Below, piece by piece: positions 24,991 through 37,723 of a stretch of 64,000 nt of DNA. Origin of the DNA: Alphaproteobacteria bacterium (GTDB taxonomy: Bacteria; Pseudomonadota; Alphaproteobacteria; Ferrovibrionales; Ferrovibrionaceae); the NCBI GenBank assembly GCA_017307375.1, contig JAFKFH010000016.1, forward strand, positions 124,001-188,000, given 5' to 3'. A program made the translations under genes and the position numbers. The notes below the pieces were generated by a model. The model was not told the DNA's origin. It made no database searches and worked only from the letters and a program-made list of their open reading frames with translations. The first letter of the stretch is position 1. Each line of letters starts with the position of its first letter.

Positions 24991-26473
24991 GGCCGACCAT
25001 GGCACGGCCGATCGCCTGGCGATCGGCGGGGCAGGCGAATTCGGCGACGATGCGGCCGCGCGACATCACCCCGATCCGGTCAGCCAGGCTCAGCACTTCG
25101 TCGAGATCCTCGCTGATCAGCAGCACCGCCGCGCCGGCAGCGCGCGCCTCGGTCAGGCGGGCGTGCACCGCCGCCGTGGCCTTCAGGTCCAGCCCGCGGC
25201 TGGGGCTGTGGGCCAGGATGATGGTCTGGTTGCCGGCGAATTCGCGTGCGATCACCGCCTTCTGCGCGTTGCCGCCGGACAGCAGCGCCGCCTTCTGGCC
25301 CAGGCTGCGTACCCCCTGCACGTCATGTTCGGCGATGGCCTTGGCGGTCGCTCGGCGGATCGCGGCGCGATCGACCCAGCCCCAGGGGCCATAGTCGCCG
25401 CGATCGATCCGCCCGACCGCAAAATTCTCCGCGATCGACAGGTCGCCGGCCAGCGCATGGGCATAGCGGTCCGCGGGAATGCAGGCCAGGCCCAGCCGGC
25501 GCCGCGCCCCGGGCGTCAGCGCGGTCACGTCGGCCCCGGCATCCTCGAACTGGATGACGCCGGCGGCGGGGCGCCGCACCCCGGCGATCGCCTCGGCCAG
25601 TTCGCTCTGGCCATTGCCGCTGACCCCGGCAAGGCCGTAGATCTCGCCGGCCCCGACATGCAGGTCGGCGCCGTCCACCGCCGGCCGGCCGTCCGGCCGC
25701 AGGCAGCGCAGCCCAATAAGCTCCAGCCGCCGGCGCCCCGGCGTCCCGGCCTCGCGCGGCGGCAGCGCGGCCCGTTCGCCGACGGTCAGCCGCGTCAGGT
25801 CGTCGTCGCTGGTCGCGCGGGGGTCGACGATGCCGACCGTGCGGCCGGCCCGCAGGATGGTGACCTTGTCGGCGAAGCGCCTGACATCCGGCAGCTTGTG
25901 CGTCACGAGCACGACGGCGGTGCCGGTGGCGGCGATGCCGCGCACCGTCGACAGCAGCCGTTCGGCCTCGGCATCGGTCAGCACCGCGGTCGGTTCGTCG
26001 AGGATCAGCAGCCGTGCCCCGCCGGCCATGGCCTTGACGATTTCGACCTGCTGCTGTTCGGCGACCGACAGCGAATCGACCCGCCGGTCGGGGTCGAGGG
26101 CAAAGCCCAGCCGGTCGGCGGCAAGGGCCAGCGCGCCCCGCATCGCCGCCTTGCCGCCGAGGGCGAGCACCAGGTTCTCGGCGACCGTGAAAGGGCGCAC
26201 CAGCCGGAAATGCTGATGCACCATGCCGATGCCGCGGGCGCGGGCATCGGCGGGGCCGCGCAGCGCCGCGGTGACGCCGTCCAGCGCCATGTGGCCGCTG
26301 TCGGGGGTGTAGAGGCCGGCGGCGATATTCATCAGCGACGATTTGCCCGCGCCGTTCTCGCCGAGCAGCGCATGGACCTCGCCCGCCTCGACCGAGAGCC
26401 CGGCGCCGTCCAGCGCCGGGAACCCGTCGAACCGCTTGCAGATGTCGGACAGCGCCAGCCGTGGCGGGGTCAT
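24983..26473 (-). CDS. BMP-type ABC importer double ATPase (NupO/YufO-like)
   Basis: A 496-residue fusion of two ABC domains, as in sugar and nucleoside importers. The first domain has Walker A GENGAGKSS, signature LSVAEQQQVEIVKAM and Walker B LLILDEPTAVL. The second has the degenerate Walker A GVSGNGQSEL usual for this class, and the signature LLSGGNAQKAVIAREF. It energises import by the two permeases encoded next. It starts 12 bases after the binding-protein stop and overlaps the first permease. Confidence 0.94.
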   Translation of the reverse strand: MTPPRLALSDICKRFDGFPALDGAGLSVEAGEVHALLGENGAGKSSLMNIAAGLYTPDSGHMALDGVTAALRGPADARARGIGMVHQHFRLVRPFTVAENLVLALGGKAAMRGALALAADRLGFALDPDRRVDSLSVAEQQQVEIVKAMAGGARLLILDEPTAVLTDAEAERLLSTVRGIAATGTAVVLVTHKLPDVRRFADKVTILRAGRTVGIVDPRATSDDDLTRLTVGERAALPPREAGTPGRRRLELIGLRCLRPDGRPAVDGADLHVGAGEIYGLAGVSGNGQSELAEAIAGVRRPAAGVIQFEDAGADVTALTPGARRRLGLACIPADRYAHALAGDLSIAENFAVGRIDRGDYGPWGWVDRAAIRRATAKAIAEHDVQGVRSLGQKAALLSGGNAQKAVIAREFAGNQTIILAHSPSRGLDLKATAAVHARLTEARAAGAAVLLISEDLDEVLSLADRIGVMSRGRIVAEFACPADRQAIGRAMVGHG

Positions 26474-33807: not shown

Positions 33808-34872
33808 ATGCCCTCATTTCCGACGACCAGGCTGGCCCCGCTGGCCCTGGCATCGATCCTGTGCCTGGCATCGGTCGTGGGGGCGGTGCCGGTCCGGGGG
33901 CATGCCGCCTCGATCGAGTGCGCCAAGGCTGCGACCGCGGTCGAGCAGGCGATCTGTGCCGAACGGCCGCTGACCCGGCTCGATGCCGACGTGAACCGCG
34001 AATTCTCGCGTCTTCTGCAGGATTATTCGCTGGCTGCCGGTTCGGCCGGCAGCCCGGTTGTCCTGGCCTTGCGCCAAAGCCAGCGCGTCTGGCTGGGCGA
34101 GCGCGATGCCTGCGGCGCCGATGCCGCCTGCCTTGGCCGCGAGTACCGGCGCCGCCTGGCGACGTTCGCCCGCCGCCCCGACCAGGCGACATCGCCGATA
34201 GATCCCTATGTCGGCACGTTCGGCGATCTCAATACCGATCCGACGGTGACCCTCGGCATGATGCGCGGTGCCGGCGACGAGGTGCTGGCGATGATCGACG
34301 TCGTCGGCATCGCGGCGTCCTGCCGGGTCGTCGGTATCGGCCGGCTCGACCCGGGCCGCCACCTGACGATCTCGGTCGAGCCCGCGCCGGGCCGCGAGGC
34401 CGCCTTGCTGGTCGAGGCCATCCCCGACGGAGTCTTGGTTCGTGCCTCCGTCGCGGCCGCGACGGCCTGCGGCCGCGTCAATCTCGCCGGTGAGTATCCG
34501 CGCCAGGGGCTGGGCAAGTTCGGTCCCGTGGTGCCTGAGGGGGGCAGGCGCTTCGAATTGCAGACCGATTTCGGCGCGATGACGCTTGTGATCGAGTCCG
34601 ACGGCCGGACGGTCAGCGGCTTCTATCCGGACTATCGCGGCCAGGTCGTCGGTACGCTGTCGGCAGACGGCCGTTCGATCGCCGGCGACTGGTTCCAGCC
34701 GCAGGGTGAAGCACCCTGCAACCAGCTGAACCACGGCACGGCGCATTGGGGAAGGCTGCTGTTCACCTCTCCCGAAAAGCCGCAGTCGGGCGACTTGATG
34801 ACGGGCTACTGGAGCTATTGCGAAGCCCGTCCGACCCGGCAGTGGAACGGCCGTTTCGACGTCGTTCCCTAA
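33808..34872 (+). CDS. Secreted protein with LprI-like (DUF1311) N-terminal domain
   Basis: A 354-residue exported protein with signal peptide LAPLALASILCLASVVGAVP. Residues about 36-110 match the lysozyme-inhibitor LprI N-terminal type: IECAKAATAVEQAICAERPL followed by LDADVNREF, with four cysteines (ECAK, AICA, DACG, AACLG). The remaining 240 residues are a beta-rich region with no family I recognise, containing CNQLNHGTAHWG. It follows the beta-lactamase-fold gene by 14 bases, with GAGGA before the ATG. A role in the envelope is inferred from export only. Confidence 0.75.
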   Translation: MPSFPTTRLAPLALASILCLASVVGAVPVRGHAASIECAKAATAVEQAICAERPLTRLDADVNREFSRLLQDYSLAAGSAGSPVVLALRQSQRVWLGERDACGADAACLGREYRRRLATFARRPDQATSPIDPYVGTFGDLNTDPTVTLGMMRGAGDEVLAMIDVVGIAASCRVVGIGRLDPGRHLTISVEPAPGREAALLVEAIPDGVLVRASVAAATACGRVNLAGEYPRQGLGKFGPVVPEGGRRFELQTDFGAMTLVIESDGRTVSGFYPDYRGQVVGTLSADGRSIAGDWFQPQGEAPCNQLNHGTAHWGRLLFTSPEKPQSGDLMTGYWSYCEARPTRQWNGRFDVVP

Positions 34873-34987
34873 TACCCGGTGGGCGAATCACGGCCGCGGC
34901 GGTACACTCGCCGGAGGGAATGGCGGCATAATTTCCTGACAGTAATGTAATATCGTCGCTGCCTTTTCCCGCTTGGGGGAGAAGACG

Positions 34988-37723
34988 ATGCTGGTCCGGT
35001 TGCTGACGATCTTGCTGACTGTCTCGGCGGTTTCGGTGCCGTCATGGGCGCAGGTGCTGCCGCCGCTGCCGGTGCGCGACAGCCAGGCGCTGGTCACCTG
35101 CAACGGCTTGACCGGCGATGGCCTGCAGTTCTGTACCCTGCTGAACGCGCTGAACCCGGCGAAGGCCTGGCCGGCCGGCGTCCACGTCAATCCACTGGCC
35201 GGCACCCAGGACCGGCCGTCCGGGACAACGCAGGCCGAAACCCAGGCACCGGCCTTCGCCGCGGCCGCGGCCTACCAGCTTGGCATCTACCTGCTGCGCC
35301 CGCCGGCGCACGGGCCGGCCCAGCTCGCCAATGACCAGTTCACCTGGATGTGGAACCAGGCCGCGGCGAACCAGGCGGCATTGCCTGCGCGTCGCGCCGG
35401 CGCGACGGTCCCGCCCCGTGCCGGCTGGACCGTCCTGGGCAACAGCGTCGACACCGATGCGATGGCCGATGCGCAGGCCTATGCCAATCAGGGCTATCTG
35501 GTCGTTGCCGCCTTCCGCAACGAATTCGTCACGCGCAGCTGCCTGACCGATTACTATACCCGCCTGATCGGCCAGCTGCGGCCGAACTATCATTCGCTGT
35601 CCTACGTCCTGTCGCGCGACGAGGCCGCGACGCTCTGCCCCGGCGGCAGCGCCACCGGTGTCGGCCATGTCGCGGTCGTCAGGCCGAACGCGCCCTATGC
35701 CGCGACCGGGCACACGGCCGTCTACGGTCCCGACCTGGCCCAGGCCGGCCGGGTCAATGCCAACGGCGTCACCGCCTATGAAGGTTTCGGCGCCGATACC
35801 TTCTCGCCCGGCATGGTCTATTTCTTCGTCTTCGGCGGCGCGCCGCCCGCCTATCAGGCGGCCTATGCCGGGCTGTTCGGCGACGGCCAGGCGTCGAACG
35901 GCCTCTATGCGATCCAGCGCAGCGCGCAGGGCTATCTGCAGACCGGCCTGTTCACCTACGACGCCTCGGGCGCGCCGATCTGGTACTACGGCGAGAGCAA
36001 TCTGAACACGGTCAGCTGGCGGGCGACGCCGAAGCCGCCGACGGGGTCGATTCCGACGTCCGGTTATGACCTTCCGGCGCTGTGGAAGCCGTTCTACCAG
36101 CCGGCGACGCGCGGCACGAACTACTGGGCACCGGAAGGCGACCCGATGCCCTGGCTGCGCGTAGGCCAGTTCTCGCTCGGTTTCGGCGACTACGACTCGT
36201 CGACCATCGTCGCCACAGTGTTGCTCAACGATTCGGGCCAGATCGCCGGGCCTTCGGGCACGATCGTGACCAATCCGGGCAAGCAGATCGTGTCGGTGAC
36301 CGAACGTGCGCTGGCCCGGGTGGCCGCGTCGTCGGGCGGCGTGCAGATCCCGGCCGCCACGGCCCCGGCCGCCGGCTGGTGGTGGGCGGCCTATGACGTG
36401 GCCGGCTGGAACCAGCCGACCGCGGGCTTCAAGCCGCTCGGCCTGTTCATCGACGCGCAGGGCACCACGATCAGCGCGGTGGTGGCGGGGGCCGCCGCGA
36501 CGCCGGCACCGCAGGGCTCCGATGCCGCGCCCTATCGTCCCTATTGGTGGATGTTCTCCGGCACCCTCCAGTCCAGCGGACGGGTGGCGGGCAGCCTGTC
36601 GACCTGCACGCTGGCCGGCGCGACCACGTCCTGCGCCGTCACCGCCTCCGACGTCTCGCTGTCGCCCGGCAGCGACGGCATGCTGACACTGGCCTATGGC
36701 GGCAATCAGGTGCGGTTCGGCCGCTACCGGATCGGTCCCGCGCTGCCGCCGTCGCAATCGATCCCGATCTATGCCGAAGCCTACAACCCCTCGCCGACGC
36801 GGCCTTGGGGCTACATGGCCCAGATCTCGGTCGGCGGCGGCGCCCCCCAGATCGTGACCTTCGATCTCGGCTCGTCGGGTCTCTACATCGAGCAGAGCGC
36901 GGTCGGGCCCAACGTCCGCCGCACCGGCATCGCCCTGCCGGAGTATCAATATGACAGCGGGGTGATCTACCAGTCGGAACTGGCCTATGGCAGCTTTGCC
37001 ATCGGCGGCATCGTTGCGCAGGACGTGCCGTTTGCCCTGATCACCAAGATGTCCTGCGCCACCGGCCAGCCGAACTGCCCGGTTTCGACCGGCAGCCAGG
37101 TCGGCCGGGTCGGCACGATGGGCGTGGTGCAGCAGGGCAACGTGGTCTCCAGCCCGCTCTATCAGTTGCCCCAGCCTTATGGCGCCGGCTACATCCTGTC
37201 GCTCAAGAATCTCAGCCTTACCGTGGGCCTTACCCCTCAGGCGCAGGCTAGTTTCAACCTGGCGCAGATGGCGTCGGTGGCCCAGTCGCCGGGCTGTGCC
37301 GCCGGACCGAACGGCTGCGCCCCGGCCTGGAACAATGCGACGGTGACCGGCTGCTTCTCGCTGCCCGACCTGCCGTCGCTGCCCCGGCAATGCATCACCA
37401 CGCTGTTCGATTCCGGGGCCGGCAACCTCCGCATGACAGTCGCCCCGAACCTGCAGTCGGTCGCCTCGGCGGTGACCAAGCCGAACGGGAAGATGTTCGC
37501 CGGCACCCGCATCCAGGTCGACATGCCGCCGTTCTTCACCGGCCAGGTCTTCAAGGCCGGGGACAGCGAGTGGATCGACCAGGCCGAGATCGTCTACTGG
37601 GCGCCGAACGGCGGGTACAAGCCGAACTACGCCAATTCGAATCTCGGCGCGCCCGCCCTGCTGCATCTCGATGCCCTGTGGGATGGCAGCACCGGCAAGC
37701 TCGGCATCCGGCAGGCGCCCTAG
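34988..37723 (+). CDS. Large secreted protein with C-terminal pepsin-like aspartic protease domain
   Basis: A 911-residue exported protein. The signal peptide is MLVRLLTILLTVSAVSVPSWA; the ATG at 34988 follows GGGGGAGAAG. Residues about 150-240 (DAQAYANQGYLVVAAFRN to GVGHVAVVRPN) loosely resemble CHAP/NlpC-like amidases. Residues about 315-590 contain tryptophan-rich beta modules (GLFTYDASGAPIWYY, AGWWWAAYDVAGW) also found in the protein at 59315-60724. Residues about 593-911 look like a two-lobed aspartic protease, with VTFDLGSSGLYIE (Asp626) and TTLFDSGAGNL (Asp808) 182 apart, almost the pepsin spacing. The first motif reads DLG instead of DTG. It may belong to or resemble DUF3443. The role is unknown. 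Confidence 0.7.
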   Translation: MLVRLLTILLTVSAVSVPSWAQVLPPLPVRDSQALVTCNGLTGDGLQFCTLLNALNPAKAWPAGVHVNPLAGTQDRPSGTTQAETQAPAFAAAAAYQLGIYLLRPPAHGPAQLANDQFTWMWNQAAANQAALPARRAGATVPPRAGWTVLGNSVDTDAMADAQAYANQGYLVVAAFRNEFVTRSCLTDYYTRLIGQLRPNYHSLSYVLSRDEAATLCPGGSATGVGHVAVVRPNAPYAATGHTAVYGPDLAQAGRVNANGVTAYEGFGADTFSPGMVYFFVFGGAPPAYQAAYAGLFGDGQASNGLYAIQRSAQGYLQTGLFTYDASGAPIWYYGESNLNTVSWRATPKPPTGSIPTSGYDLPALWKPFYQPATRGTNYWAPEGDPMPWLRVGQFSLGFGDYDSSTIVATVLLNDSGQIAGPSGTIVTNPGKQIVSVTERALARVAASSGGVQIPAATAPAAGWWWAAYDVAGWNQPTAGFKPLGLFIDAQGTTISAVVAGAAATPAPQGSDAAPYRPYWWMFSGTLQSSGRVAGSLSTCTLAGATTSCAVTASDVSLSPGSDGMLTLAYGGNQVRFGRYRIGPALPPSQSIPIYAEAYNPSPTRPWGYMAQISVGGGAPQIVTFDLGSSGLYIEQSAVGPNVRRTGIALPEYQYDSGVIYQSELAYGSFAIGGIVAQDVPFALITKMSCATGQPNCPVSTGSQVGRVGTMGVVQQGNVVSSPLYQLPQPYGAGYILSLKNLSLTVGLTPQAQASFNLAQMASVAQSPGCAAGPNGCAPAWNNATVTGCFSLPDLPSLPRQCITTLFDSGAGNLRMTVAPNLQSVASAVTKPNGKMFAGTRIQVDMPPFFTGQVFKAGDSEWIDQAEIVYWAPNGGYKPNYANSNLGAPALLHLDALWDGSTGKLGIRQAP

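Follow-up and report, generated by a model that had tools for sequence, protein, structure and literature searches.

A probable pepsin-like bilobed domain with a DLG first motif at the C-terminus of a predicted exported alphaproteobacterial protein

In bacteria, aspartic peptidases with two lobes are uncommon. A gene in the window analysed here (64,000 nt of contig JAFKFH010000016.1) appears to encode such a domain, in which the Thr position of the first Asp motif is occupied by Leu. This raises the question of whether the domain is related to pepsins, to which family it belongs and whether it could act as a peptidase. The features discussed are listed below.

34988..37723, + strand: whole gene, predicted exported multi-domain protein of 911 aa (translation ending in a stop)
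34988..35053, + strand: predicted Sec signal peptide, residues 1-22, MLVRLLTILLTVSAVSVPSWAQ (sequence reading by eye)
35054..35845, + strand: N-terminal domain, about residues 23-286, related to a standalone THCS...GHIAIVRP domain but degenerate (Cys replaced, TQAPAF; GH kept)
35846..36730, + strand: Trp-rich beta-type modules, about residues 287-581 (matching no known family)
36737..37720, + strand: pepsin-like bilobed domain, residues 584-911, ~328 aa (PF20729 and hhalign matches, see text)
36863..36880, + strand: putative first catalytic motif DLGSSG, Asp626, with Leu627 replacing Thr/Ser (motif reading, seven-protein comparison)
36950..36961, + strand: flap-type Tyr655-x-x-Gly658 (invariant in seven relatives, in register with the rhizopuspepsin flap)
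37055..37078, + strand: Cys690/Cys697, probably disulfide-bonded (both invariant in seven relatives)
37112..37123, + strand: first-lobe hydrophobic-Gly element GTMG, residues 709-712 (landmark comparison)
37409..37426, + strand: putative second catalytic motif DSGAGN, Asp808 (motif reading, hhalign, seven-protein comparison)
37640..37711, + strand: second-lobe element NLG...DALWDGSTGKLGIR, residues 885-908 (corresponding to ILG...VFD....VG in pepsin)

The open reading frame proposed by a previous sequence-only reading is real: it translates into 911 aa followed by a stop, starts with MLVRLLTILLTVSAVSVPSWAQ, and its ATG is preceded at ~6 nt by a strong Shine-Dalgarno-like GGGGGAG (at about 34976-34982). 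The protein contains 12 Cys in close pairs (38/49, 185/217, 540/549, 690/697, 770/777 and 789/802), which are all present in a paralog described below except 789/802. Paired and conserved Cys would be typical of a protein that is exported and oxidised, and we infer that the protein is exported and rich in disulfides.

Upstream and on the same strand lie genes for a serine hydrolase of the beta-lactamase family (PF00144, 32714-33793) and, nearest to the gene, a protein with an LprI (lysozyme-inhibitor) domain (33808-34872). A fatty-acid hydroxylase is encoded downstream on the opposite strand. We claim no functional link between these neighbours and the gene, no promoter or terminator pattern was found around 34988-37723, and no substrate gene could be linked to it. 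Elsewhere in the window, ARAGORN reported a tRNA-Ala(ggc) at 25558-25651; its 94 nt are unusually long for a tRNA-Ala and the assignment may be wrong.

A second full-length copy of 976 aa, 46% identical and carrying DLGSSGM and DSGAAN, is encoded in the same genome. No other genome yielded the full architecture, within a partial genome sample and the limited sensitivity of such searches, as judged by queries with the whole protein (41 genomes, its own and relatives), the C-terminal domain (385 genomes of the class and 398 of the phylum), the N-terminal domain (190 genomes) and the Trp-rich middle (150 genomes). Scans of viral contigs and plasmids gave no relative either, apart from the Pantoea and Caballeronia plasmid proteins considered separately below. 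An outer-membrane beta-barrel gene (L002:751-1485, - strand) begins 10 bases past the end of the paralog, and both are probably carried on one transcript.

The N-terminal region had been described as amidase-like. It resembles a standalone exported protein of 210 aa from the same genome (L004:1207-1836, - strand) carrying THCS...GHIAIIRP, which shares ~47% identity with proteins encoded on Pantoea and Caballeronia plasmids; these are annotated as hypothetical or not at all and also carry THCS and GHI. The L004-type domain matched no Pfam family, and the N-terminal domain itself had no credible match to a named one (NlpC/P60, CHAP). THCS together with GHI would normally point to an amidase or peptidase of the papain-like kind. 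At the catalytic-Cys site, however, THCS of the three standalone relatives is replaced by TQAPAF in the 911-aa protein and by THGGSF in the paralog, while the GH His is kept in the former and is Q in the latter. Thus the resemblance holds but the active-site Cys is missing, and since it is replaced in both fused proteins, the N-terminal domain is most likely catalytically dead. The adjoining Trp-rich modules include GLFTYDASGAPIWYYGE and AAGWWWAAY.

In the C-terminal domain, translation confirmed DLGSSGL at Asp626 and DSGAGNL at Asp808, 182 residues apart, as well as Leu627 at the Thr position, a residue shared with the paralog. The Pfam model PE-PGRS_C (PF20729, the PecA/PE_PGRS16 domain) matched the isolated domain with 26.1 bits (E 6.7e-6) and the whole protein with 23.7 bits, both below the curated cut-off of 33 bits. 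In this family each lobe carries one Asp motif, DTG and DSG respectively; here both Asp are present and aligned, and the first motif reads DLG. The PecA equivalog model of NCBIfam (NF038019) did not match the protein, and peptidase family A1 (PF00026) matched neither the protein nor its genome. As judged by these profiles, the nearest named family is PE-PGRS_C/PecA, absent from the earlier reading. Having failed the curated cut-offs of PF20729, NF038019, PF11925 (DUF3443, see below) and PF00026, the domain is filed as a divergent relative of PE-PGRS_C/PecA and not as a member.

Relatives with canonical motifs exist as standalone proteins. Acetobacteraceae bacterium KSS8 encodes a secreted protein of 313 aa (L007/L009) with DTGSTG and LDTGEFD, which scored E 1.4e-9 against the profile of the C-terminal domain and its paralog; L007 passes the PF20729 cut-off with 39.8 bits. 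Searching the phylum with PF20729 gave more secreted MDTGSTG/VDTG proteins, three from the same class as the host (L018, L019, L022) and one from another class (L020). A further candidate, L011 (E 5.5e-4), was rejected for an internal stop and its position opposite a long transporter-like ORF. The proteins at L018:958-2082 (-), L019:922-2052 (-), L022:1321-2349 (+) and L020:1321-2487 (+) share, besides canonical MDTGSTG/VDTG motifs, a conserved Cys pair and a YSSSG flap, and fall under every Pfam cut-off. From their sequences, they seem to form a family of their own, as yet undefined, of bilobed aspartic peptidases that are secreted.

Comparison of seven proteins, five canonical and two fused, showed that both Asp, Tyr655, Gly658, Cys690/697, Trp781, Asp899 and Gly903 are invariant, as is the landmark order D, G, Y..G, C/C, D, G, D....G, with Asp-Asp spacings of 175-207. 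Directly after the first Asp, the five canonical proteins have Thr or Ser, whereas both fused proteins have Leu. By sequence and profile, the domain displays features of bilobed clan-AA peptidases, namely two Asp-bearing lobes in one chain, a putative flap Tyr and ordered hydrophobic-Gly elements, with Leu627 in place of the clan's Thr/Ser in both paralogs. A regular expression for the motif order gave 0 matches in 20,000 shuffles; it was derived from the 911-aa protein itself and is not counted as evidence.

Could the two DxG motifs be a coincidence in a beta-rich repeat domain that is unrelated and lacks the pepsin fold, such as a Trp-rich module? AlphaFold models, built from two-row alignments only (the 911-aa and KSS8 proteins), reached pLDDT of just 32 and 30, and hhalign gave no direct match between the C-terminal domain and one bacterial A1 pepsin (L023). 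Against this, hhalign aligned the profile of the domain and its paralog with three canonical proteins (A9, from L018/L019/L020/L022), found independently of the 911-aa protein, with a probability of 92% and E 6.8e-7 over 275 columns spanning both lobes; Asp626 and Asp808 were both in register, and so were the flap Tyr, the Cys pair and the C-terminal NLG...LWDG..G (Leu-Gly) segment. With the same profile, two rhizopuspepsins ranked first in the PDB, with catalytic Asp and flap regions aligned and a marginal E of 0.027. The seven-protein profile retrieved HIV-type proteases, PE_PGRS16 (4ehc, E 0.0011) and aspergillopepsin (1izd, E 0.0075, over both lobes). Matches to RecA and SAKe were put aside as spurious. 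Together with the PF20729 match, these alignments make the absence of a pepsin fold improbable. Membership in DUF3443, a question raised by the sequence-only reading, is refuted and we give it next to no weight: PF11925 matched nothing in the protein or its genome, though a true DUF3443 protein (L021) scored 453 bits with the same model. Proteins of that family also carry two Asp motifs (VDTGSQG and IDSGSNG in L021) and hhalign detected weak similarity in the first lobe (probability 20%, E 0.0011); the domain and DUF3443 may share a clan-AA origin. The motif pair, by contrast with the chance reading, is best read as not fortuitous, given the PF20729 match, its retention in the paralog and the alignment of its Asp columns with those of canonical DTG/DTG proteins. 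That a secreted protein ends here in a clan-AA domain with two lobes, as in pepsin, is therefore backed by sequence and profile matches; its pepsin-like bilobed homology is well supported at this level, direct A1 membership is not.

Whether this fold is active is a more balanced question. Our proposal, to which we give an even chance, is a divergent PE-PGRS_C/PecA-type bilobed domain acting, at the surface or in the periplasm, as a slow or specialised endopeptidase, its fold, location, activity and substrate all being putative. Asp626 and Asp808 would form the catalytic pair beneath the Tyr655 flap, and the enzyme might, like PecA, cleave either a partner protein or the N-terminal part of its own chain. 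PecA itself is active as a protease on the cell surface, requires its DTG Asp and offers a precedent for self-cleavage (PMC6819658). Leu627 would take away one 'fireman's grip' hydroxyl and so weaken catalysis, not necessarily to zero, and the covalent joining of the lobes may make this loss cheaper. The dead N-terminal domain and the Trp-rich modules would probably serve binding. The presence of Leu627 in both copies is the main argument against activity. In HIV-1 protease, T26A was reported as virtually inactive via lost dimerisation, and S371A abolished dimerisation of the PEG10 protease (PMC7212762).

The same residue, Leu in both paralogs versus Thr/Ser in all five canonical relatives, would also suit a pseudo-peptidase, that is, a pepsin fold devoid of activity which together with the dead N-terminal domain and the Trp-rich modules forms a binding or structural surface protein. 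This reading has a substantial, if minority, share of our confidence. The N-terminal domain of these very proteins has likewise lost its Cys, and PE_PGRS16 provides a precedent: it has canonical DTG/DSG motifs and the fold, yet its structural study detected no activity, according to the account in PMC6819658. However, although the paralogs have diverged to 42-46% identity, both Asp, the Gly following each and the flap Tyr persist in them, unlike the N-terminal Cys and one His. Asp, Gly partners and flap Tyr remaining unchanged while the N-terminal active site drifted in both fused proteins suggests selection on the Asp site, and for this reason we prefer the slow or specialised peptidase to the pseudo-peptidase. 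The combined picture of a secreted bilobed aspartic peptidase working with a DLG site, without the first-lobe Thr/Ser, and retaining a dead N-terminal catalytic domain for binding, is offered tentatively and is rather doubtful as a whole.

Taken together, we regard the 911-aa protein as moderately interesting, being a divergent and seldom-seen version of something already known. It adds a group of secreted proteobacterial proteins that are related to the PecA domain of mycobacteria and lie largely under present Pfam cut-offs. With DLG occurring in two paralogs, nature provides a test of how far Thr/Ser after the catalytic Asp is needed once the lobes are covalently joined.

Among known systems, mycobacterial PE-PGRS_C/PecA (PE_PGRS35) and PE_PGRS16 (4EHC) are likewise multi-domain surface proteins that end in a bilobed aspartic-peptidase domain, and the spacing of the PecA motifs (at 293 and 470, 177 residues) is similar to the 182 found here. 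In contrast to them, the 911-aa protein stays under the family cut-off, has DLG instead of DTG, carries a Sec-type signal where the mycobacterial proteins use a PE domain and type VII secretion, and contains, in the same chain, a dead Cys/His domain as well as the Trp-rich modules. The secreted DTGSTG/VDTG proteins of Pseudomonadota have in common with it export, two lobes and the landmarks, including the Cys pair and flap Tyr, but are standalone, of 310-400 aa, with canonical Thr/Ser in both motifs. Secreted DUF3443 proteins (PF11925) share two Asp-x-Gly motifs, whereas the profile match is absent. RloA retropepsin-like peptidases of Pseudomonas are secreted clan-AA enzymes with a disulfide in periplasmic orthologs, but act as single-lobed dimers with DTGA (PMC12239564). 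Finally, bacterial A1 pepsins (MEROPS A1; shewasins, L023) display two lobes with Asp motifs and the same hydrophobic-Gly order as the 911-aa protein, but the published ones are without signal peptides (PMC2761423), whereas the 911-aa protein is without a PF00026 or L023 profile match.
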